Shown: positions 43,706-58,286 of the stretch, one piece after another
Position numbering within the stretch: the first letter of the stretch is position 1
How the letters are laid out: each line of letters opens with the position of its first letter
Assembly: GCF_001854805.1 (NCBI RefSeq)
Contig: NZ_MBLO01000114.1
Span: 1 to 64,000, forward strand
Direction of reading: 5' to 3'
Origin: Pseudofrankia coriaricola
GTDB lineage: Bacteria; Actinomycetota; Actinomycetes; Frankiales; Frankiaceae
DNA: 64,000 nt
Position numbers and translations under genes: made by a program
The notes under the pieces: generated by a model
Databases searched by the model: none
The model's input: only the letters and a program-made list of their open reading frames with translations
Told to the model about the DNA's origin: nothing

Positions 43706-46135
43706 GTGACCCTGGGCGCGCCGGGGGGCGGCACGGCTGGCGCCCCCCTGAGCGAGACCGACCCGCGCCAGGTCGGCGCCTACACACTGCTTCGCCGCCT
43801 CGGGCGCGGCGGGATGGGACTGGTCTACTACGGCCACAGCCAGCAGGGACGCCCGGTCGCGGTCAAGGTGATCCGTCCGGAGGTCGCCGCCGACCGCGAG
43901 TTCCGGGCCCGGTTCCGCCACGAGGTGGCCAATGCCCGCAGGGTCCGGGGATTCTGCACGGCTGAGGTTCTCGACGCCGACACGGACGGCGAGCTCGCCT
44001 ACCTGGTCACCGACTACGTCCAGGGCCCGACACTGGCCCAGGCGATCAGGGAGCGCGGGCCGCTCGCCCGTCCCGACCTCGAGCAGCTGGCGATCAGCGT
44101 GGCGACGGCGCTGACGGTCATCCACAGCGCCGGCGTGGTCCACCGCGACCTCAAACCGGAGAACGTCCTGCTCTCGCCGACCGGCGCGCGGGTCATCGAC
44201 TTCGGGATCGCCCGCGCACTCGACGCGGCCACCGCGCTGTCCCGGGAGATCCGGCGCGTCGGCACGCCGGCGTTCATGGCGCCGGAACAGGTCGCGGGCA
44301 CCGACCTGACGCCGGCTGCCGACATCTTCGCCTGGGGCGGCATCGTCGTGCACGCCGGCACCGGCCGTCTCCCCTTCGGGGACGGCCCCACGGACGTGAT
44401 CTTCTACCGCATCGAGACGAAGCCGCCCGACCTGTCCGGCCTGCCCATGCCGCTGCGGGACATCGTCGCGGTCGCCATGCGCAAGGACCCGGAGCTCCGG
44501 CCGACCGCCGCCGAGCTCTACGGCATGCTGCTCGGCGCGTCAGTGCCCGCCGCGCCGGAGCCGTCAGATGACGCCGAAGCCGGGCCCGAGGCCACCGTCA
44601 TCTCGACCCTTCCGCGGATTCCGCCGCTGACCATCCCGCCTACCGCCCTGTCGGTTCCTCCGGGCGGCTCGGTTCCTCCAGCCGGCTCGGTTCCGCCGGC
44701 TGGCTCGGTTCCCCCGGGTGGCTCGGTTCCTCCGGCCCTGTCGGTTCCTCCGGCCGGCCGGCCCGATGACGTGCACCTACCCGCGGGTGCCAACCCGCCC
44801 GGCTTCATCCCGTGGGGCCGCCGGCGACGCCGCGGCCGGGCGCTGGTCGCGGCGGGCGTCGCTCTCGTCGTGGCGGCGGCGCTCACGACCGTCGTGCTGC
44901 TCAACCGTTCCAGCGGCGGGAACGACCCGTCAGCCGATGACCTGGCAGCCGGCTCCCGGACACTCGCCGCGCGGGCCACGGCGGCCGGGCCGACCGGCCG
45001 TGCGTTGTCGCTCCGGCTGGCGACGGCGGCCTACCGGCTGGCCCCGACGTCCGAGGCCCGCGCGGCGCTGCTGGCCGCCGCGGACAGCAAGCTCGCGACC
45101 CTGGCGGTCCTCTCCGGTCACACCAACAACGTCATCTACGTGGCGTTCAGCCCGGACGGCAAGGTTCTCGCCACGACCAGCGACGACGGGACCGCCCGGC
45201 TGTGGGACCTCACCGGTTCCGGTGGGCCGACGACGATAGCCACCCTCATCGGGCATACCGGCGAGGTCAACGGTGTGGCATTCAGCCCGGACGGGAAGAC
45301 GCTCGCCACCGCCAGCGAAGACCACACGCTTCGGCTGTGGGATGTCACCAACCCGCGCCAGCCGGCGCCGCTGGCGGTCATCACCGGTCACACCGAGTCC
45401 GTGTACGGCGTCAGATTCAGCCCGGACGGCCGGATCCTGGCGAGCTCCGGCGGCCTCGACCACACGGCCCGGCTGTGGGATGTGACCAACCCGCGGCAGC
45501 CGGCGCCGCTGGCGACGATCAGCGGTCACGACGGTGCCGTCTGGGGCCTGGCGTTCAGTCCGGACGGGAAGACGCTCGCCACGGCCGCCACCGACCAGAA
45601 GGCCAGGCTGTGGGACATAGGCAACCCCCGCGAGCCGGCGCCGTTGGCGACGATCAGCGGCCACACCAGCTTCGTCCTGGACCTGGCGTTCAGTCCGGAC
45701 GGGAGGACGCTCGCCACCGCCAGCGGCGATCGGACAGTCCGGTTGTGGGATGTCGCCCACCCCCGGCAGCCGGTGCCGCTGGCCACTCTCACCGGCCACA
45801 CCAACGAGCTCTACGGGGTGGCGTTCAGCCCGGACGGCCGGACGCTCGCGACCACCAGTCGTGACCAGACCGCCCGGCTCTGGGACGTCACCAGCCTCCG
45901 TCAGCCCCGGCCGTTGGCCACCCTCACCGGCCATGAGGACCGCGTCTACGGGGTAGCGTTCAGCCCGGACGGCCGGCAGCTCGCCACCACCAGCACCGAC
46001 TGGACCGCCCGGCTATGGACCGTCGACGCCGCCGAACTCGCCCAGCGAGCCTGCGCTGTCCCGACCGACCGCCTCACGCCGGCGGAATGGGCCCGCTACC
46101 TCCCGAACCTGCCGTACCGAGCCACCTGCCCCTGA
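43706..46135 (+). CDS. Transmembrane Ser/Thr protein kinase with seven WD40 repeats
   Basis: This 809-residue protein starts at GTG. The kinase domain (about 25-285) has RLGRGGMGLVYYG, VAVKVIRPE, HRDLKPEN and VIDFGIARAL. Tandem SVPPAG/SVPPGG repeats (about 313-350) form a Pro-rich juxtamembrane linker. One membrane segment (about 378-398, ALVAAGVALVVAAALTTVVL) is followed by an extracellular seven-bladed WD40 propeller (about 460-770), each blade with GHT...V..VAFSPDG...LATxSxD.TARLWD. A short Cys-containing tail ends in YRATCP. The propeller probably binds a ligand or protein outside and signals through the kinase. The blades are very alike at DNA level, suggesting recent duplication. Confidence 0.95.
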   Translation: MTLGAPGGGTAGAPLSETDPRQVGAYTLLRRLGRGGMGLVYYGHSQQGRPVAVKVIRPEVAADREFRARFRHEVANARRVRGFCTAEVLDADTDGELAYLVTDYVQGPTLAQAIRERGPLARPDLEQLAISVATALTVIHSAGVVHRDLKPENVLLSPTGARVIDFGIARALDAATALSREIRRVGTPAFMAPEQVAGTDLTPAADIFAWGGIVVHAGTGRLPFGDGPTDVIFYRIETKPPDLSGLPMPLRDIVAVAMRKDPELRPTAAELYGMLLGASVPAAPEPSDDAEAGPEATVISTLPRIPPLTIPPTALSVPPGGSVPPAGSVPPAGSVPPGGSVPPALSVPPAGRPDDVHLPAGANPPGFIPWGRRRRRGRALVAAGVALVVAAALTTVVLLNRSSGGNDPSADDLAAGSRTLAARATAAGPTGRALSLRLATAAYRLAPTSEARAALLAAADSKLATLAVLSGHTNNVIYVAFSPDGKVLATTSDDGTARLWDLTGSGGPTTIATLIGHTGEVNGVAFSPDGKTLATASEDHTLRLWDVTNPRQPAPLAVITGHTESVYGVRFSPDGRILASSGGLDHTARLWDVTNPRQPAPLATISGHDGAVWGLAFSPDGKTLATAATDQKARLWDIGNPREPAPLATISGHTSFVLDLAFSPDGRTLATASGDRTVRLWDVAHPRQPVPLATLTGHTNELYGVAFSPDGRTLATTSRDQTARLWDVTSLRQPRPLATLTGHEDRVYGVAFSPDGRQLATTSTDWTARLWTVDAAELAQRACAVPTDRLTPAEWARYLPNLPYRATCP

Positions 46136-50282: not shown

Positions 50283-53200
50283 TCACCGGTCACGCCGTCG
50301 CGGGGCGCGTCCATCGGCTCCGGCGAGCACGGCGCTCCCTCGGCCGCGGCGTTTGGCGTCGTACATGGCGAGATCGGCGGCGCGGATGATCCGCAACGGG
50401 TCGGGGTAGGCGGTGGAGAGCGCGGCACCGATCGTCGCGGCGACCGTCAGTACGGCCACCTTGGTCCGCAGTGGCTGGCGCAGCGCGGCGAGGATCCGCT
50501 CGGCGAGCTCGACGAGCTCGCCCTCGTCCGTGTTCGCGACGAGGATGCCGAACTCGTCGCCGCCGAGCCGCGCCACGGTGTCCCCCGCCCGGACGGTGGC
50601 TTCCAGCCGCAGCGCGACGATCTCGAGAACCTCGTCGCCGGTGCCGTGGCCGTAGATGTCGTTGACGGGCTTGAAGTTGTCCAGATCGACGAACAGGACG
50701 CCGAATGGCGAGGCGCCCGTCTCCCAGGCACATCGGGAGGGCGACGCGCCGGCGGACGCGGTCGGGACGCCGCTGCCAGCCTCGGGTCCGGAGCCGCCGG
50801 CGGCGAGATCATGCCCGTCTGGCCGCTCGGCACACCGCCTGGCCGCCCGCAGGACGGCCTCGTCGAGACACCGGTCGAAGGCGACCCGGTTGGGCAGGCC
50901 GGTGAGCGGGTCGCGGTACGCGGCGGCGGTCAGCTCGTCCTGCAGCGCCTTGCGCTCGCCGATGTCGTGACAGGTGATCAGGACACCGGACACGTCCGAG
51001 CCGGGCGCCGTCGTCAACGCCGACGCGGTGACGTCGAACCACCGGTGCCGGCCGTCGGCGGTACGGAGCCGAACGTCCTGCAGAGTCTCCGGACCGGGCC
51101 GCCCGGCCCCCGCGGCCGGCGACGGCGCCGCCGCGGAGGGCGGTGAGGCCGCCGGGGCACGAGGCGAGGCGGGCGCCCCGGTGGGCGGCGGCGGTGGTGG
51201 CAGCCTGCCGGCCGTGGCCCGGACGAACGTGCACAGCCGCGCCGCGTCGTCCGGATGGGCGAGGTCGGCGACGTCGTGGCCGGCCCAGTCGGTGGTCCGC
51301 TGGTCGAGGAGGCGGGTCACCGATGGCCCGACGACGCTGATCCGGCCGTCCGGGGCGGCGACGGCGACGATGTCGTGAGCGCCGCGCAGCAGCGCCTCGA
51401 AGCGGTCGACATCACGGCGCAGCACCCGCCGGCGACGGTCGTCGGACGCGGCCACGGCGATCAGCGTGAACGCGACGATGCCGAGCAGGAGCCCGAGCCC
51501 GGGCAGCGAGCTGCCGAGGTCGTCGAAGACCGCGGCCCGGTCTCGTTGCAGGAGCGTGTAGTAGCCGGGAATCCGGCCCGTCGGCATCGCGAGCGAGATC
51601 AGGCCTGGGTCGGCCGAGCGCACGGAGGTCGCCTCGCCCTCAGGGGGGAGCCGGCTCAGCGTCGCGGGGTCGACGACGCGACGCCCGATGAAGGTGTTGT
51701 CCGAGCCGAAGCCGACGCGTCCGTTCTGGTCGACCAGTTCCAGGGAGCCCAGCGAGGCGAGCGACTGGAAGATCACCGTCGGTAGCCCGTGGTGCGCCGA
51801 GCGGCCGATGGCCAGTACCGCGACGGTCCTGCCATCGCGGATCACCGGCTCCAGTCCGTACACCCGCTCGGTCCCCGTGGAGTCGGCGGTGACCGGGGTC
51901 CACTGAGCCTGGCCCGCCACGACCGAGCGCCACAGCGTGCCTCGGGTGTCTACCGGCATCGTCGCCTTCGCTGGAAGCGCCGAGAGAATCTGACCGTCAG
52001 GCGAGGTCAGCAGCAGATCGGTGTCCGGGCCGCCGATGGCGGAGGCCGCGAACCGGCGCAGGATCTCGCGGTCGATCGTGGGGTTCGTGAAGGTCCACGG
52101 AGCGGCCGAGACGAGTGGCACCAGCCGCCCTGGCTCCAGGATCGTCGCCGCGGAGTCGTTGAACGCCGCCGCCACGGCACGGTTCTGGGCGAGGGCGGCG
52201 GCGCGCGCGGTGCGCTGGGCATCGGCCTCCTGACGCAGGCCGATGCCGAGGATGCCCAGCAGGAGCGCCGCGACCGCGAGAATCGGGGCAAGGGAGCGCA
52301 GCCATCTGGGCCAGGCCCGCCGGCGGCGACCGGCCATCGGAGCGGCGAGTCTGGCGCGGCCCGCGGCGGCCCGGCGCGGCCCGCCTCCGCGCGCGGAGGC
52401 GTCGTCCCGCGGCGCCGGGCCCGCCGTGGCCGGCGCTGTCTCCGCGGCCCCGGCCGCGGCCCGCCGCGACACCGTCGCCGGCCGCGCTGACGGCGCCGAC
52501 GGTGGCGCCGAGCCGGCCCGCGGCGACGGCTGAATGGCCGCCGCGGCCGCCTCGGAGAGGGCCGCGGCGGGGCCGGTGATGGGGGCGAGATCCGGTGCGA
52601 ACACCGTGCGCGGTCCGTGGCCGGCGCGCTTTGCCTCGTACATGGCCTGGTCCGCGGCCCGCAGCAGCGCGTCGGCATCGGCGGGGGAAGCGTGGCCGTC
52701 GAGAGACGGCGTGCTCAGCGCGACACCGATGCTGGCGCGGACCTGCACGCGGTCGGCCTGGTGCGCCGAGGCGACGCCGGCCCCCGTGTCCGGCGGGGGC
52801 AGGCTGATCGGCCGGGCGATGGCCGTGGCGAGACGCTCGGCGATCAGCCGCGCGGTCGCGGGTTCGGCCTCGCGCAGCAGCGCGCCGAACTCGTCCCCGC
52901 CGAACCGACAGGCAAGGTCGTCCGGGCGCAGGGTGGCGACGATGCGCTGGGCGACGACCCGCAGCACGTGGTCGCCGACGGCGTGGCCGTGCCTGTCGTT
53001 GATGGGCTTGAAGTCGTCGAGGTCGATGAACAGCAGCGCGTCCCGCGTGCCGTCGACGGCGGACGTCGTGAGCGCGCCGGCGAGGTGGGCGAGGAAGGTC
53101 GCGCGGTTGGGCAGGCCGGTCAGGGGGTCGTGCCGCGCCTTGTGGGCGAGGCGGTCCTGAAGGGCCTTGCGCTCGCCCACCTCGTGGCATGTGATGACCA

Positions 53201-54818
53201 CCCCGCCCAGGTCGTGGGCACCGCGTTCGTCGACGGCGGTGAGATCGAACCACCGGAAGTGCTCCGGGTCGGTGTCCGTGGCCGCCTCCGCGCCCGAGGC
53301 CGCCTCCGCGCCGGTGGCTGGCTCCGCGCCGGTGTCGTCAACCGGGGCGGATCCGTGCTCGGCACCGTTCGTGGCGCGCAGCCGGACGTCGACGAGCGTC
53401 GTTTCGCCTGGCGAGAGGCACGCGAGCGATGCCGCCACCCGGTCGCGGTCGTCGGGATGGACGAGGTCGAGCAGCGGCCGGTCGACCCACTCGGCGTCGG
53501 CCTGGCCCAGCAGCCGCCGTGCCGATGGGCTCATGAACACCACGGTCGAACCGTCGCGGACGAGCACGATCACGTCATGGGTGTTGCCGAGCAGGTTGTG
53601 CAGCCGGGCGCGGGCCCGGCGGGCTCCTAACTCGCGTAATGCGCCGAAGAGGACCAGCCCGAACACCGACCCCCCGAGCACGCCGACGAGCGTGTGGTTC
53701 CGGCTGGCCTGCTGGTCGCGCAGGTCGCCGTAGAGCTGCTCGTTCGAGGCCTCGAACACGGTCACATAGCCGGTGGTCAGCTGTGCGGCGGCGATCACGG
53801 TTCGTTCGTGGCCGTCGGCGCCGCGCGTCTGCCAGACCTCGGAATGGCCTGGTCGCAGGCCCGTCAGCCGGGCCGGGTCGACGATGCGTCTGCCCACCTC
53901 GGTCGGCGCCCACGAGGAGATCGCGACACCGTCGCGGTCCACCTGGGACAGCCCGCCCGCGCCGGCGCCGTTGCCCAGCACGCCGAGGCGCTCCTGGAAC
54001 CGCTCACCGGCGGTGTCGATGGACAGCGAGACGAGCACCGCTCGCGGCTCGCCCTTCCCAGCCGCGAAGCCCTCGGTGGGGCTGCCGCCGGCGTGGGCCG
54101 GGGCGAGCGCGGCGCGGACCTCCTGGCCATCCACGTCGAATGCCGAGGACCAGCCGGGCTCGCCGCGCAGCGCGTCCCCCCAGGCGGAGCCCAGCTGGGC
54201 GGTGGGGATCGCCGCGCCGTCCGGGCGCGCCGCGATCACCCGTCCCGACGTGTCCAAAAGGGCGACGGCCACCGTCGGGTTGCCGGTTGGCGTGAGGTCG
54301 AAGGCCGCCAGCAGATCGGCGTCGTGGGCCGGATCGGTCAGGCTGAACCCGGCGCCGTCGACCATCGTCTGGAGAGTCGCTGGGTCGTCGGTCTGCGACC
54401 GGTAGTTCGCGATGCTCTCGACGAGGTCGACCCGGTTGGCCCGGCGGCCGTGCTCGGCGTTGCCAAGCTGCCAGCGCCCGACCAGCACGGCGGTGAGCGC
54501 GAGCAGCAGGGCGAGGACGGCACCGGTGATGAGGGGAACGGCCCGGCCCAGCCGGCCCGCCCGCCACGGTCGGTTCCGCCGCCACCGACCCGGGTGGTCA
54601 TCCTCGCCGAATCGGCCACCCGCACCGCGCTGGGCGCCGGTGCCTTTGCCGGTGCCGTCATCCGTATGCCACCTGCGCGACAGTGACGTCGCGATACGTG
54701 TCCATGCGGGGGCCGTGAGCCTCGCGTCGGCGGGCTTCGCCGACTGGCTAGTCGAGACCATGCGGGTCGAGGCCGTGCCCCCTCCGATTCCGGAGGCGCT
54801 GGACGTCCACGTTTTCAT
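50283..54818 (-). CDS. Giant protein with two complete membrane sensor-PAS-GGDEF modules
   Basis: This single 1,511-residue frame contains two similar halves. Half 1: membrane segment about 94-114, extracytoplasmic CACHE-like sensor about 115-370, membrane segment about 372-392, PAS about 400-560, GGDEF domain about 575-740 with FGGDEF near 639 and inhibitory-site RPDD five residues before it. Half 2: membrane segment about 845-865, sensor about 870-1098, membrane segment about 1100-1122, PAS about 1135-1270, GGDEF domain about 1285-1495 with LGGDEF near 1417 and RAGD before it. Both active sites look intact, so two diguanylate cyclases may make c-di-GMP in one chain. A 90-residue Ala/Pro linker joins the halves. 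No EAL domain is present. Confidence 0.9.
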   Translation of the reverse strand: MKTWTSSASGIGGGTASTRMVSTSQSAKPADARLTAPAWTRIATSLSRRWHTDDGTGKGTGAQRGAGGRFGEDDHPGRWRRNRPWRAGRLGRAVPLITGAVLALLLALTAVLVGRWQLGNAEHGRRANRVDLVESIANYRSQTDDPATLQTMVDGAGFSLTDPAHDADLLAAFDLTPTGNPTVAVALLDTSGRVIAARPDGAAIPTAQLGSAWGDALRGEPGWSSAFDVDGQEVRAALAPAHAGGSPTEGFAAGKGEPRAVLVSLSIDTAGERFQERLGVLGNGAGAGGLSQVDRDGVAISSWAPTEVGRRIVDPARLTGLRPGHSEVWQTRGADGHERTVIAAAQLTTGYVTVFEASNEQLYGDLRDQQASRNHTLVGVLGGSVFGLVLFGALRELGARRARARLHNLLGNTHDVIVLVRDGSTVVFMSPSARRLLGQADAEWVDRPLLDLVHPDDRDRVAASLACLSPGETTLVDVRLRATNGAEHGSAPVDDTGAEPATGAEAASGAEAATDTDPEHFRWFDLTAVDERGAHDLGGVVITCHEVGERKALQDRLAHKARHDPLTGLPNRATFLAHLAGALTTSAVDGTRDALLFIDLDDFKPINDRHGHAVGDHVLRVVAQRIVATLRPDDLACRFGGDEFGALLREAEPATARLIAERLATAIARPISLPPPDTGAGVASAHQADRVQVRASIGVALSTPSLDGHASPADADALLRAADQAMYEAKRAGHGPRTVFAPDLAPITGPAAALSEAAAAAIQPSPRAGSAPPSAPSARPATVSRRAAAGAAETAPATAGPAPRDDASARGGGPRRAAAGRARLAAPMAGRRRRAWPRWLRSLAPILAVAALLLGILGIGLRQEADAQRTARAAALAQNRAVAAAFNDSAATILEPGRLVPLVSAAPWTFTNPTIDREILRRFAASAIGGPDTDLLLTSPDGQILSALPAKATMPVDTRGTLWRSVVAGQAQWTPVTADSTGTERVYGLEPVIRDGRTVAVLAIGRSAHHGLPTVIFQSLASLGSLELVDQNGRVGFGSDNTFIGRRVVDPATLSRLPPEGEATSVRSADPGLISLAMPTGRIPGYYTLLQRDRAAVFDDLGSSLPGLGLLLGIVAFTLIAVAASDDRRRRVLRRDVDRFEALLRGAHDIVAVAAPDGRISVVGPSVTRLLDQRTTDWAGHDVADLAHPDDAARLCTFVRATAGRLPPPPPPTGAPASPRAPAASPPSAAAPSPAAGAGRPGPETLQDVRLRTADGRHRWFDVTASALTTAPGSDVSGVLITCHDIGERKALQDELTAAAYRDPLTGLPNRVAFDRCLDEAVLRAARRCAERPDGHDLAAGGSGPEAGSGVPTASAGASPSRCAWETGASPFGVLFVDLDNFKPVNDIYGHGTGDEVLEIVALRLEATVRAGDTVARLGGDEFGILVANTDEGELVELAERILAALRQPLRTKVAVLTVAATIGAALSTAYPDPLRIIRAADLAMYDAKRRGRGSAVLAGADGRAPRRRDR

Positions 54819-55238
54819 GGAGATCGCTGCCTGTACGCGAAGGACTACATCAAGTTACGGGAATGCGTACCCTCAGGCAAGCTCGGCGACCCTCGGGACA
54901 GTTCACCGGCCGGGCACCCCGACGGCACGTAGGTCGTCGCGACCGGGACCGGGGACCGGGATCGAGACTGGGACCAGGATCACCGGCCGCCTTCCCGGGA
55001 TTCTCCAATGAGGCAATTAATCTCATGGCCGCCATCGCCCGCTATGCCGCCATGAAAGCCTCCGGCCGTAACAGCCATATCCGACGTGGGGCGGCGAATA
55101 TGCCCGCGGAACATCGGAAACTCGGAACGATGGAAGCCACGGAACCGGTGGCCAGGTTTTTTCCGGCGGCGCCGGGCAGGAGTCCGGCAGCGTCGGGGTC
55201 GGGGCCGTCCCCGAGCCGAGGTGACCGGGGGACTTCTC
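54819..55238. other. 420-bp divergent intergenic region
   Basis: No gene is supported between the diverging double-GGDEF gene and the ferredoxin fusion. The region contains a GGGACCGGG-type repetitive patch near 54945-54985, and AT-richer DNA (55000-55140) that may carry the promoters. Confidence 0.5.
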
Positions 55239-56930
55239 TTGAGACTCGTCGTTGACCTCACGCGCTGCCAGGGATATGCGCAGTGCGCCTTCCTCGCGCC
55301 GGACGTGTTCCACATGCAGGGGGACGAGGCGCTCTGGTACGACCCGGAGCCCGACGACACCCGGCGAGAGCAGGTTCTCCGGGCGGCGGCCGCCTGCCCG
55401 GTCCAGGCGCTGCGGGTCGAGCCGATCCGGGTGCGCGACCGCGTCGGCGCGGGTCCGCCGCTTCGCGCTGGCGCCAGCGGTGGCACTGCCACTGGCGGCC
55501 GCACTGCCACTGGCGGCCGCACTGCCACTGCCGGCCGCACTGCCACTGCCGATGCCGACGGCGATGCCATGAGGCGGGCCGCGCGAATCGTCGTCGTCGG
55601 CGTCTCGGTCGCCGGCCTGCGAGCCGCGACGGCGCTGCGGCGGGAGGGCTTCACCGGCCCGCTGACGCTGATCGGAGACGAGCCGTGCGAGCCCTACGAC
55701 CGGCCGCCCCTGTCCAAGCAGGTCCTCGACGGCTGGGTGCCGGGCCGGCGGACCGCCCTGCCTCGGCCCGATGACCTCGACGCAGAGTGGCGGCTCGGCG
55801 TGCGCGCGACCGGCCTCGACCTGGCCCGCAAGCGGGTCCTGCTCGCGGACGGCGAGGAGGTCGAGTTCGATCGGCTGCTGATCACCACCGGTGCGCGGGC
55901 GCGACCGTGGCCCAATCCAGCCGAGGCGGCCCTGGACGGCATGTTCGTCCTGCGTGGCCGGGACGACGCCGCCGGCCTGCGCCAGCGGCTCGCCGCCGGG
56001 CCTCGCCGGGTGCTGGTCATCGGCGCCGGCTTCACCGGGTCGGAGGTCGCGTCGTCGTGCCGTGGGCTGGGGCTGCCGGTGACCGTCGCCGAGCGGGGCC
56101 CCGCGCCGCTCGTCGGGGCGCTCGGGCGAGCGGTCGGCGCGGTCGCCGCGGACCTGCACCGCGACCACGGCGTCGACCTGCGCTGCGACGTCACGGTCAC
56201 GGCGCTGGAGGGTGACCGGGCCGGCCGGCTTCGCCGCGCCCACCTGTCGGACGGCACGTCGCTCGACGTCGACGTGGCCGTCGCCGCGCTCGGCAGCGTC
56301 CGCAACGTCGAATGGCTCCTGGACTCGGGGCTCGGGGCCGGGCCGTGGGGAGTCGGCTGCGACACCGGGTCGCGGGCCTTCACGGTCGACGGCATGGTCT
56401 GCGACGACGTCTTCGTCGCGGGAGACGTGGCACGGTTCCCGCACCCTCTCTACGACTTCCAGTTCCTCGCGCTCGAGCACTGGGGCAACGCGGTCGCGCA
56501 GGGCGAGATCGCGGCTCACAACATGATCAGCCCGCAGACCGAGCGCTGGCCGCACCTGGCCGTGCCCAGCTTCTGGTCGACCCAGTTCGGTACGGAGATC
56601 AAGTCCGTGGGCGTCCCCACCTTCGCCGACGAGGTCGTCATCGCGCAGGGCTCGACCGCGGACCGCCGGTTCATCGCCGTCTACGGCCACCGAGGCCGGG
56701 TCACCGCCGCGGTCGCCTTCGACCAGGGGAAATGGCTGGACTTCTACCAGGGCCTGATCGAGCGGGCAGCGCCGTTCCCGCCGGACTTCCGCCGCGTCGA
56801 CCAGCCCGCCCGGCGGCCCGTGCCGGCGGAGATCCCCGACCGGCCGGCGCTCATCCACGAGGCCACGGTCATGGTGACCGGACATGACCCGTCCGCGCGG
56901 CGCGCCCGGTTCGTCCACGTGGGCCGCTGA
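55239..56930 (+). CDS. Ferredoxin fused to ferredoxin reductase (P450 redox partner)
   Basis: This 563-residue fusion begins with a single-cluster ferredoxin (about 1-75: VVDLTRCQGYAQCAFLAPDV, later AAACPVQAL), whose Cys spacing fits a 3Fe-4S or modified 4Fe-4S cluster. A Gly/Thr/Arg-repeat linker (about 80-110) leads to a full ferredoxin reductase with FAD motif IVVVGVSVAGLRAAT, a NAD motif VLVIGAGFTGSEVASSC, and VFVAGDVARF. In FdxA/FdR-P450 operons these are normally two genes. TTG 55239 was chosen because GGGGGA lies six bases upstream and it gives the standard MRLVVDL start; GTG 55221 is an alternative. The P450 follows 42 bases later. Confidence 0.9.
   Translation: MRLVVDLTRCQGYAQCAFLAPDVFHMQGDEALWYDPEPDDTRREQVLRAAAACPVQALRVEPIRVRDRVGAGPPLRAGASGGTATGGRTATGGRTATAGRTATADADGDAMRRAARIVVVGVSVAGLRAATALRREGFTGPLTLIGDEPCEPYDRPPLSKQVLDGWVPGRRTALPRPDDLDAEWRLGVRATGLDLARKRVLLADGEEVEFDRLLITTGARARPWPNPAEAALDGMFVLRGRDDAAGLRQRLAAGPRRVLVIGAGFTGSEVASSCRGLGLPVTVAERGPAPLVGALGRAVGAVAADLHRDHGVDLRCDVTVTALEGDRAGRLRRAHLSDGTSLDVDVAVAALGSVRNVEWLLDSGLGAGPWGVGCDTGSRAFTVDGMVCDDVFVAGDVARFPHPLYDFQFLALEHWGNAVAQGEIAAHNMISPQTERWPHLAVPSFWSTQFGTEIKSVGVPTFADEVVIAQGSTADRRFIAVYGHRGRVTAAVAFDQGKWLDFYQGLIERAAPFPPDFRRVDQPARRPVPAEIPDRPALIHEATVMVTGHDPSARRARFVHVGR
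55483..55556 (+). repeat. In-frame 18-bp tandem repeat at the ferredoxin/reductase junction
   Basis: The unit GCACTGCCACTGGCGGCC is repeated about 3.7 times (55483, 55501, 55519, 55537), the last two with one changed base. Because 18 is a multiple of three it adds repeated Gly-Gly-Arg-Thr-Ala-Thr residues without breaking the frame. Copy number could vary between strains. Confidence 0.9.
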
Positions 56931-56972
56931 GTGAGCCGGCCGCACACCGTCGACAACTCGGAGGGCCGCCCT

Positions 56973-58286
56973 ATGGCTATGGCGCCGGTCAGCGTCTTCG
57001 ACCAGATTCTCGACCACAGCAACCGTGCCAATCCGTACCCGCTCTGCGCCGAGCTGCGCCGCACACCGGTCAGCCGGGCGGATGACGGCGGCTTCGTCGT
57101 GAGCACGTACGCCGAGATCGTCGCGCTGCTGCACGATCCCCGGCTCAGTTCGGATCTTCGCAACCGCGCGGACCACGCGGCCGTGGCCCAGGACGAGGCG
57201 GCAGGGCCGCTGCCGCCGTCGTTCATCGCCCTCGACCCGCCAGAGCACGACAGGATCCGGCGGCTGCTGACCCGGCACTTCGGGCCGCCGCACAACCCTG
57301 GACGGATCGTCCGGCTGGTCCCCGAGATCGCCGAGATCGCCGGCGGCCTGGTGGACGGCCTCGCCGGGCGCGGCCGGGTGGACCTCGTCGACGAGTTCGC
57401 CTACCCGCTCCCGGTCACGGTCATCTGCCGGCTGCTCGGAGTGCCCCGCGAGGACGAGCCGCGCTTCCGCGTGTGGGCCGACGCCGTGGTCGAGGCCACC
57501 GACCCGGCCACCGGCGACCTGGCCACCCGGCGAGGCCGGCGCACCAGGGCTCTGGCCGAGCTCGGGGAGTACCTCGGCGACCTGGCCGACGCCCACCGGC
57601 GCGACCCCGGCGACGACATCCTGTCCGGGCTGGCCACCGACTCCGACACCGACGTGGGGGGCCGGCTGTCGCGCGGCGAACTGATGGTCAACGCCGCGCT
57701 TCTCCTCATCGCCGGCCACGAGACCACCGTCAACCTCATCGCGAACGGCATGCTTACCCTGCTGCGCCATCCCGACGTCGCGCGCAGGCTGGCCCGGCAG
57801 CCCGACGTGGCCGGCCGGGTGGTCGAGGAGGTGCTGCGCCACGACCCACCGGTGCAGTTCCTGGGGAACCGCGGCGCCCTCGACGAGATCGAGGTCGCCG
57901 GCACCGTCATTCCCCGCGGCGCGCCCATCACCCTGGTGCTCGCCGCGGGCAACCGCGACCCCGCCCACGTCGCCGACCCCGACCGGTTCGACCCGGATCG
58001 GCAGTACATCGAGCATCTCGGCTTCGGCGGGGGAGTCCACTACTGCTTCGGCGCCCCGCTGGCCCGGCTCGAGGCACAGATCGCCCTGACGGAACTCGCG
58101 CGCCGGCTGGAGAATCCCCGGCTGGCCGCCGACCCGCCGCCCTACCGGCCGAGCCCGCTCCTGCGCGGCCCTCGCCATCTGCTGGTCACCGTGGACGGCG
58201 TCACCCCGGCGCCCCCGCCGGCGGGCGGAGCCCGGTCAGCCGGCCGGGCTCGCCCTTCGACCGCTTCGCCGGCGGCCGTCCGGTGA
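56973..58286 (+). CDS. Cytochrome P450
   Basis: This 437-residue P450 has the I-helix LLIAGHETTVNLIANG near 245-260, a K-helix EEVLRHDPP, and the haem-binding loop GFGGGVHYCFGAPLAR near 350-365 with the proximal Cys. It is a class I bacterial P450 that takes electrons from the fused ferredoxin/reductase encoded immediately upstream. ATG 56973 has GGAGGG seven bases upstream; a GTG directly after the fusion stop (56931) is an alternative. The tail after about 410 is Pro/Ala-rich and unconserved. The substrate is unknown; the following SDR may act in the same pathway. Confidence 0.96.
   Translation: MAMAPVSVFDQILDHSNRANPYPLCAELRRTPVSRADDGGFVVSTYAEIVALLHDPRLSSDLRNRADHAAVAQDEAAGPLPPSFIALDPPEHDRIRRLLTRHFGPPHNPGRIVRLVPEIAEIAGGLVDGLAGRGRVDLVDEFAYPLPVTVICRLLGVPREDEPRFRVWADAVVEATDPATGDLATRRGRRTRALAELGEYLGDLADAHRRDPGDDILSGLATDSDTDVGGRLSRGELMVNAALLLIAGHETTVNLIANGMLTLLRHPDVARRLARQPDVAGRVVEEVLRHDPPVQFLGNRGALDEIEVAGTVIPRGAPITLVLAAGNRDPAHVADPDRFDPDRQYIEHLGFGGGVHYCFGAPLARLEAQIALTELARRLENPRLAADPPPYRPSPLLRGPRHLLVTVDGVTPAPPPAGGARSAGRARPSTASPAAVR

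Follow-up and report, generated by a model that had tools for sequence, protein, structure and literature searches.

GGDEF enzymes such as PleD, WspR and TpbB act as homodimers. Single-module dCache diguanylate cyclases (Aeromonas caviae, 7k5n; the Vibrio parahaemolyticus sensory box/GGDEF protein, 2p7j) have an extracytoplasmic dCache domain, transmembrane (TM) anchors and a C-terminal GGDEF domain, as does the protein described here, but they carry one module per chain, whereas here the module is doubled and the halves have diverged. With PleD, WspR and TpbB(YfiN) (1w25, 3bre, 7a7e) the tandem protein has in common the GGDEF domain, the RxxD inhibitory site (I-site) and the Mg and GTP ligands; those enzymes, however, are homodimers of separate chains, while in the tandem protein two GGDEF domains are joined by a linker. 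The Streptomyces proteins CdgA-CdgF, RmdA and RmdB, which like the tandem protein are actinobacterial PAS-GGDEF signaling proteins, contain a single GGDEF domain, often together with EAL, and no doubled module (PMC6205966). The animal membrane adenylyl cyclases (class III, TM-C1-TM-C2) are similar by analogy only, in being built from a duplicated membrane-plus-cyclase unit with unequal halves, and the GGDEF fold is related to that of adenylate cyclase domains (PMC1183210). The animal enzymes differ in product and in domain family, and the tandem protein has dCache sensors; the two presumably arose independently.

Searches limited to open-access literature yielded no description of a doubled sensor-PAS-GGDEF module; within that scope the sensor, PAS and GGDEF domains are each known, and what is new is the doubling of the whole module in one chain. 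A search of open-access full text, judged by title and term counts, also found no Frankia-focused paper dealing with c-di-GMP and GGDEF proteins, and in the Frankia group of nitrogen-fixing plant symbionts little work on signaling of this type seems to have been done.

Gene and domain organization

The gene is located in a 64,000-nucleotide window (the whole stretch of DNA analyzed) from Pseudofrankia coriaricola, on the minus strand at 54818..50283, in a frame that stays open over 1,511 codons. In comparison with two congeners, 1-nt indels at nt 16-27 break this frame. Its opening codons thus lack frame conservation, and translation probably begins downstream of codon 1, for instance at the codon-20 ATG (window position 54761), which also opens a frame-conserved stretch in P. 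asymbiotica.

The encoded protein has the order TM-sensor-TM-PAS-GGDEF, present twice in one chain. This layout of two whole modules in a single 1,511-residue frame had been proposed in a first-pass annotation and is borne out by Pfam (two GGDEF and two PAS domains, with a PF00990 match of 2e-78), by the motifs, by hydropathy, in which each module shows two TM segments and the chain exactly four, and by an alignment of the N half with the C half. The same annotation had suggested that alignment; it extends across all three domain types, sensor, PAS and GGDEF, with 29% identity (E 6e-57), so that the entire module has been duplicated.

In the first module (all coordinates refer to the minus strand), TM helix 1 (residues 96-114; 54477..54533), assigned by hydropathy and appearing as a long helix in the structural model, is followed by an extracytoplasmic dCache-like sensor (residues 115-375; 53694..54476), TM helix 2 (residues 376-394; 53637..53693; hydropathy), a PAS domain (residues ~403-556; 53151..53612; PF00989/PF08448) and a GGDEF domain (residues ~560-735; 52614..53141; PF00990). 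The second module consists of TM helix 3 (residues 843-861; 52236..52292) and TM helix 4 (residues 1105-1123; 51450..51506), both from hydropathy, enclosing a second dCache-like sensor (residues 862-1104; 51507..52235), then a PAS domain with a Pro/Ala-rich loop insert (residues ~1137-1295; 50934..51410; PF13426 and our own profile) and a GGDEF domain with a loop of ~45 residues before strand 1 (residues ~1299-1497; 50328..50924; PF00990). In both halves a cytoplasmic PAS domain is recognized above cut-off (PF00989 and PF13426) between the TM segment and GGDEF. As the first-pass annotation had stated, both halves retain the GGDEF motif (residues 640-644, 52887..52901, and residues 1419-1423, 50550..50564) and an RxxD site, which motif matching reads as RPDD in the N half (52917-52928) and RAGD in the C half (50580-50591). 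We also observed a low-complexity loop insert ahead of the first strand of the C-half GGDEF domain (window 50645-50860; residues ~1320-1391), and in several relatives a comparable insert cuts the C-half GGDEF profile match in two.

Divergent from the cyclase, at window 55161-58286, one open reading frame encodes a 4Fe-4S ferredoxin domain together with an FAD-dependent ferredoxin reductase (Fer4, Pyr_redox_2, Reductase_C). A cytochrome P450 gene comes directly after it and an NAD-dependent epimerase gene next; the order reductase, P450, epimerase is shared with P. asymbiotica (L001). Elsewhere in the window (43706-46135) a Ser/Thr protein kinase and a multi-repeat WD40 propeller are fused, the two being separated by a proline-rich repeat of the GGSVPPA type.

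Integrity of the fusion

The two modules are connected by an Ala/Pro/Gly/Arg-rich linker (residues ~745-842; 52293..52586, minus strand). In the alignment to the two congeners, all indels beyond about codon 10, as far as the conserved frame extends, are multiples of 3; those in the linker are of 9 nt and 3 nt plus a 153-nt deletion, and the linker substitutions concentrate at codon position 3. Since the indels are multiples of 3 and the substitutions favor third positions, the linker is coding and the two modules form one gene. This pattern, together with the presence of the same fusion in single-contig genomes (G029, G001, G003, G005), speaks against the idea that the frame results from an assembly join or from a missed frameshift between neighboring genes, for which no supporting point was found and which we regard as vanishingly improbable; two separate genes are ruled out by the fusions in finished assemblies and the coding linker. 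The first-pass annotation had itself named a missed stop or frameshift, and relatives with the halves as independent neighboring genes, as observations that would overturn its reading. The former was looked for and is absent, and no relative in the family shows the latter.

Two family loci, L132 (G025) and L137 (G024), were considered as a possible unfused state and rejected, as their breaks fall inside module 1 and not between the modules, which identifies them as frameshifts. These breaks are located near the module-1 PAS/GGDEF boundary or inside GGDEF-N and represent either assembly error or recent decay.

Distribution and age of the tandem layout

A search with a profile of the sensor matched only this gene in its own 11.2-Mb genome, in which, among about 40 GGDEF matches, the tandem gene is the sole frame with two. 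The sensor was found by profile search in 33 of 35 Frankiaceae-type genomes; the other two (G032 and G014) gave no match to the profile and have apparently lost the gene. Examination of the orthologues for the fused state, also suggested by the first-pass annotation, revealed that the fusion is conserved, with sensor-PAS-GGDEF occurring twice in one open frame in 34 frames (34 proteins) from 27 family genomes, including one- or two-contig assemblies (G029, G001, G003, G005, G031), and with an inter-module linker of 58-187 residues. Named matches to the tandem gene come from Pseudofrankia asymbiotica, Parafrankia colletiae and a Frankia alni MAG. Of the remaining family copies, some run off contig ends and others are frameshifted within module 1 (L132 and L137); with these set aside, no free-standing sensor module was seen in the 35 genomes.

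Outside the family, broader sampling of the class and the phylum gave only weak single-copy sensor-GGDEF relatives, namely one group (f14) without a recognizable PAS domain in frames of 442-555 aa and a more distant one (f57) in frames of 499-600 aa. Of the 92 GGDEF frames from 76 unrelated loci, none is double (one regex match proved spurious), no such frame was seen outside the family in a 30-genome class sample among the matches listed, and a plasmid search returned generic GGDEF matches only. The earlier remark that no common family has this tandem layout is accordingly correct in that the layout is rare in general, but it does not extend to this one family, where it is standard (33/35 genomes). 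The tandem cyclase is a conserved, old and real biological unit, not a single-genome curiosity.

A maximum-likelihood tree built from 75 modules separates the two kinds: one branch (SH-aLRT 94) sets off every one of the 36 N modules and another (SH-aLRT 95) every one of the 37 C modules, and the single-copy relatives lie outside both clades. L132_N and L162_N, which are C halves or artefacts of a frameshift or contig end, do not count among the N modules. The separate grouping of N and C modules shows that a single ancient duplication-fusion predates the radiation of the Frankiaceae. A recent duplication was considered and ruled out, as the N and C clades split before the genera of the family. 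Later whole-gene duplications copied the tandem as a unit, with up to three per genome (G021), and all copies retain both modules.

A different expansion of GGDEF-type proteins was encountered in genome G000, which contains at least eight paralogous proteins of ~1,600-1,700 residues ending in GAF-GGEEF, a strikingly expanded family spread over contigs C39, C267, C258, C191, C124, C68, C235 and C10 (L081-L088; L167:43-4824). Most of the eight keep the RxxD site, and one that was translated begins with a protein-kinase domain followed by a large ATPase, as read from the translation.

Sensor domains

Both sensor models (AlphaFold2, pLDDT 77 and about 80) match dCache ligand-binding domains, with a long N-terminal helix and two PAS-like subdomains placed between two TM helices. 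The C sensor model (pLDDT 79.7, pTM 0.67) superposes on the dCache domain of the Aeromonas diguanylate cyclase 7k5n with a VIA Z of 14.6 and an rmsd of 3.6 over 217 residues, and most of its top VIA matches have Z 13-16 and rmsd 3.4-4.2 over about 200-243 residues. The N sensor model (pLDDT 77, pTM 0.60) matches 3lif in Foldseek (E 1.7e-7) and dCache domains in VIA, although more weakly than the C sensor, with a whole-domain rmsd of 7-9. The Arg-x-Trp-Tyr motif is the ligand motif of the amino-acid-binding dCache_1 subtype; it is absent from both sensors, which on this criterion are not placed in that subtype.

A closer inspection of family-wide conservation showed 47 conserved sensor columns in N and 21 in C, of which only 9 are conserved in both; the near-invariant residues W329 and Y1087 are specific to the N and C sensor, respectively. 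In the GGDEF domains the corresponding numbers are 53 in N, 45 in C and 39 in both. By this measure divergence is far greater in the sensors than in the catalytic domains, in keeping with two inputs. The first-pass annotation had described two different sensors. That stands as far as position-specific divergence is concerned (9 shared columns vs 47 and 21), but judged from the models the two are homologous, strongly diverged dCache-type copies rather than unrelated domains.

Catalytic halves and proposed mechanism

The Mg2+/GTP-binding residues (first Asp, Asn, the GHxxGD Asp and the Lys of AK) are intact in both halves of this protein, and across the family almost all of the 41 N and 38 C halves retain the checked Mg/GTP residues, with the exception of the Arg four residues past the AK lysine (K+4), a phosphate contact in PleD and WspR. 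In the present protein the N half has His at K+4 and the C half has Arg. With Lys accepted at this position, and with L132 left out of both the K+4 and the I-site counts, Arg/Lys is missing from one half in 27 of 33 proteins (22 in N only, 5 in C only), is kept in both halves in 6 and is missing from both in none; as background, 80% of 87 GGDEF domains carry Arg or Lys there. The pattern of loss in one half gives a Fisher p of 0.002, a value that ignores relatedness, and as the C-half losses all belong to one clade there are few independent events behind it. Single-module relatives likewise lack Arg at K+4. The pattern, read from sequence, suggests that the halves may share an active site in which at least one of them is sound.

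The same asymmetry, with the N half deficient in most lineages and the C half in one clade, could also indicate that the K+4-deficient half is a regulatory pseudo-enzyme that binds GTP or c-di-GMP and gates an intact half homodimerized between chains. Degenerate GGDEF regulators are well known, but pseudo-enzymes usually lose the GGDEF motif, whereas here that motif and the other Mg/GTP residues are kept in both halves, and we consider this explanation improbable.

RxxD product-inhibition sites are present in many GGDEF members but not all. Within the family, both halves have the site in 13 proteins, neither in 16 and only one half in 4 (29/33 concordant). Its presence in both halves would permit product inhibition in the lineage of the present protein.

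The account toward which we lean is that of a membrane diguanylate cyclase derived from an ancestral TM-dCache-TM-PAS-GGDEF subunit that was doubled and fused head-to-tail before the Frankiaceae, after which the halves specialized and now work as a single-chain pseudo-dimer. The two modules would have equal topology, with dCache outside and PAS and GGDEF inside, and because of this they could lie side by side as a pseudo-dimer. A long flexible linker would lead from the end of the first GGDEF domain back to the membrane; even the shortest, at ~200 Angstrom contour, should be enough for that return from GGDEF-N. The two dCache sensors may bind different small ligands, or one ligand at different affinity, and their joint state would set the packing of the PAS-to-GGDEF helices, which in turn would decide whether GTP-loaded GGDEF-N and GGDEF-C meet to make one c-di-GMP. 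We infer intramolecular GGDEF pairing, cyclase activity and two-signal integration for the tandem protein. That it is a natural single-chain pseudo-heterodimeric diguanylate cyclase, conserved family-wide, in which unlike GGDEF half-sites pair intramolecularly and integrate two extracellular signals, seems to us plausible if a little short of probable.

The linkers also bear against intramolecular pairing, since at 58-187 residues they are long enough for pairing between chains too. Two chains might dimerize N with N' and C with C', as tethered ordinary homodimeric cyclases, in keeping with the homodimerization of ordinary GGDEF proteins and with the retention in both halves of all checked catalytic residues except the N-half Arg(K+4). 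However, the N half lacks an Arg or Lys at K+4 in 22 of 33 proteins, a loss not expected of an N-N' enzyme acting autonomously, and the absence of surviving solo copies would be left unexplained. We therefore regard this arrangement as rather unlikely, and it is equally unlikely that the gain was one of dose and co-localization and not of a new catalytic pairing.

Implications

Diguanylate cyclases are usually treated as homodimers under dimerization control. A fused and diverged pair kept through the history of the Frankiaceae would be a natural test of GGDEF half-site specialization, and the tandem cyclase would provide a system for asking how two sensor inputs combine at one active site. 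It would also bear on whether second-messenger cyclases have repeatedly gone from homodimer to single-chain heterodimer. If the single-chain pseudo-heterodimer reading is true, this family would possess a bacterial second-messenger enzyme comparable to the duplicated adenylyl cyclases of animals.
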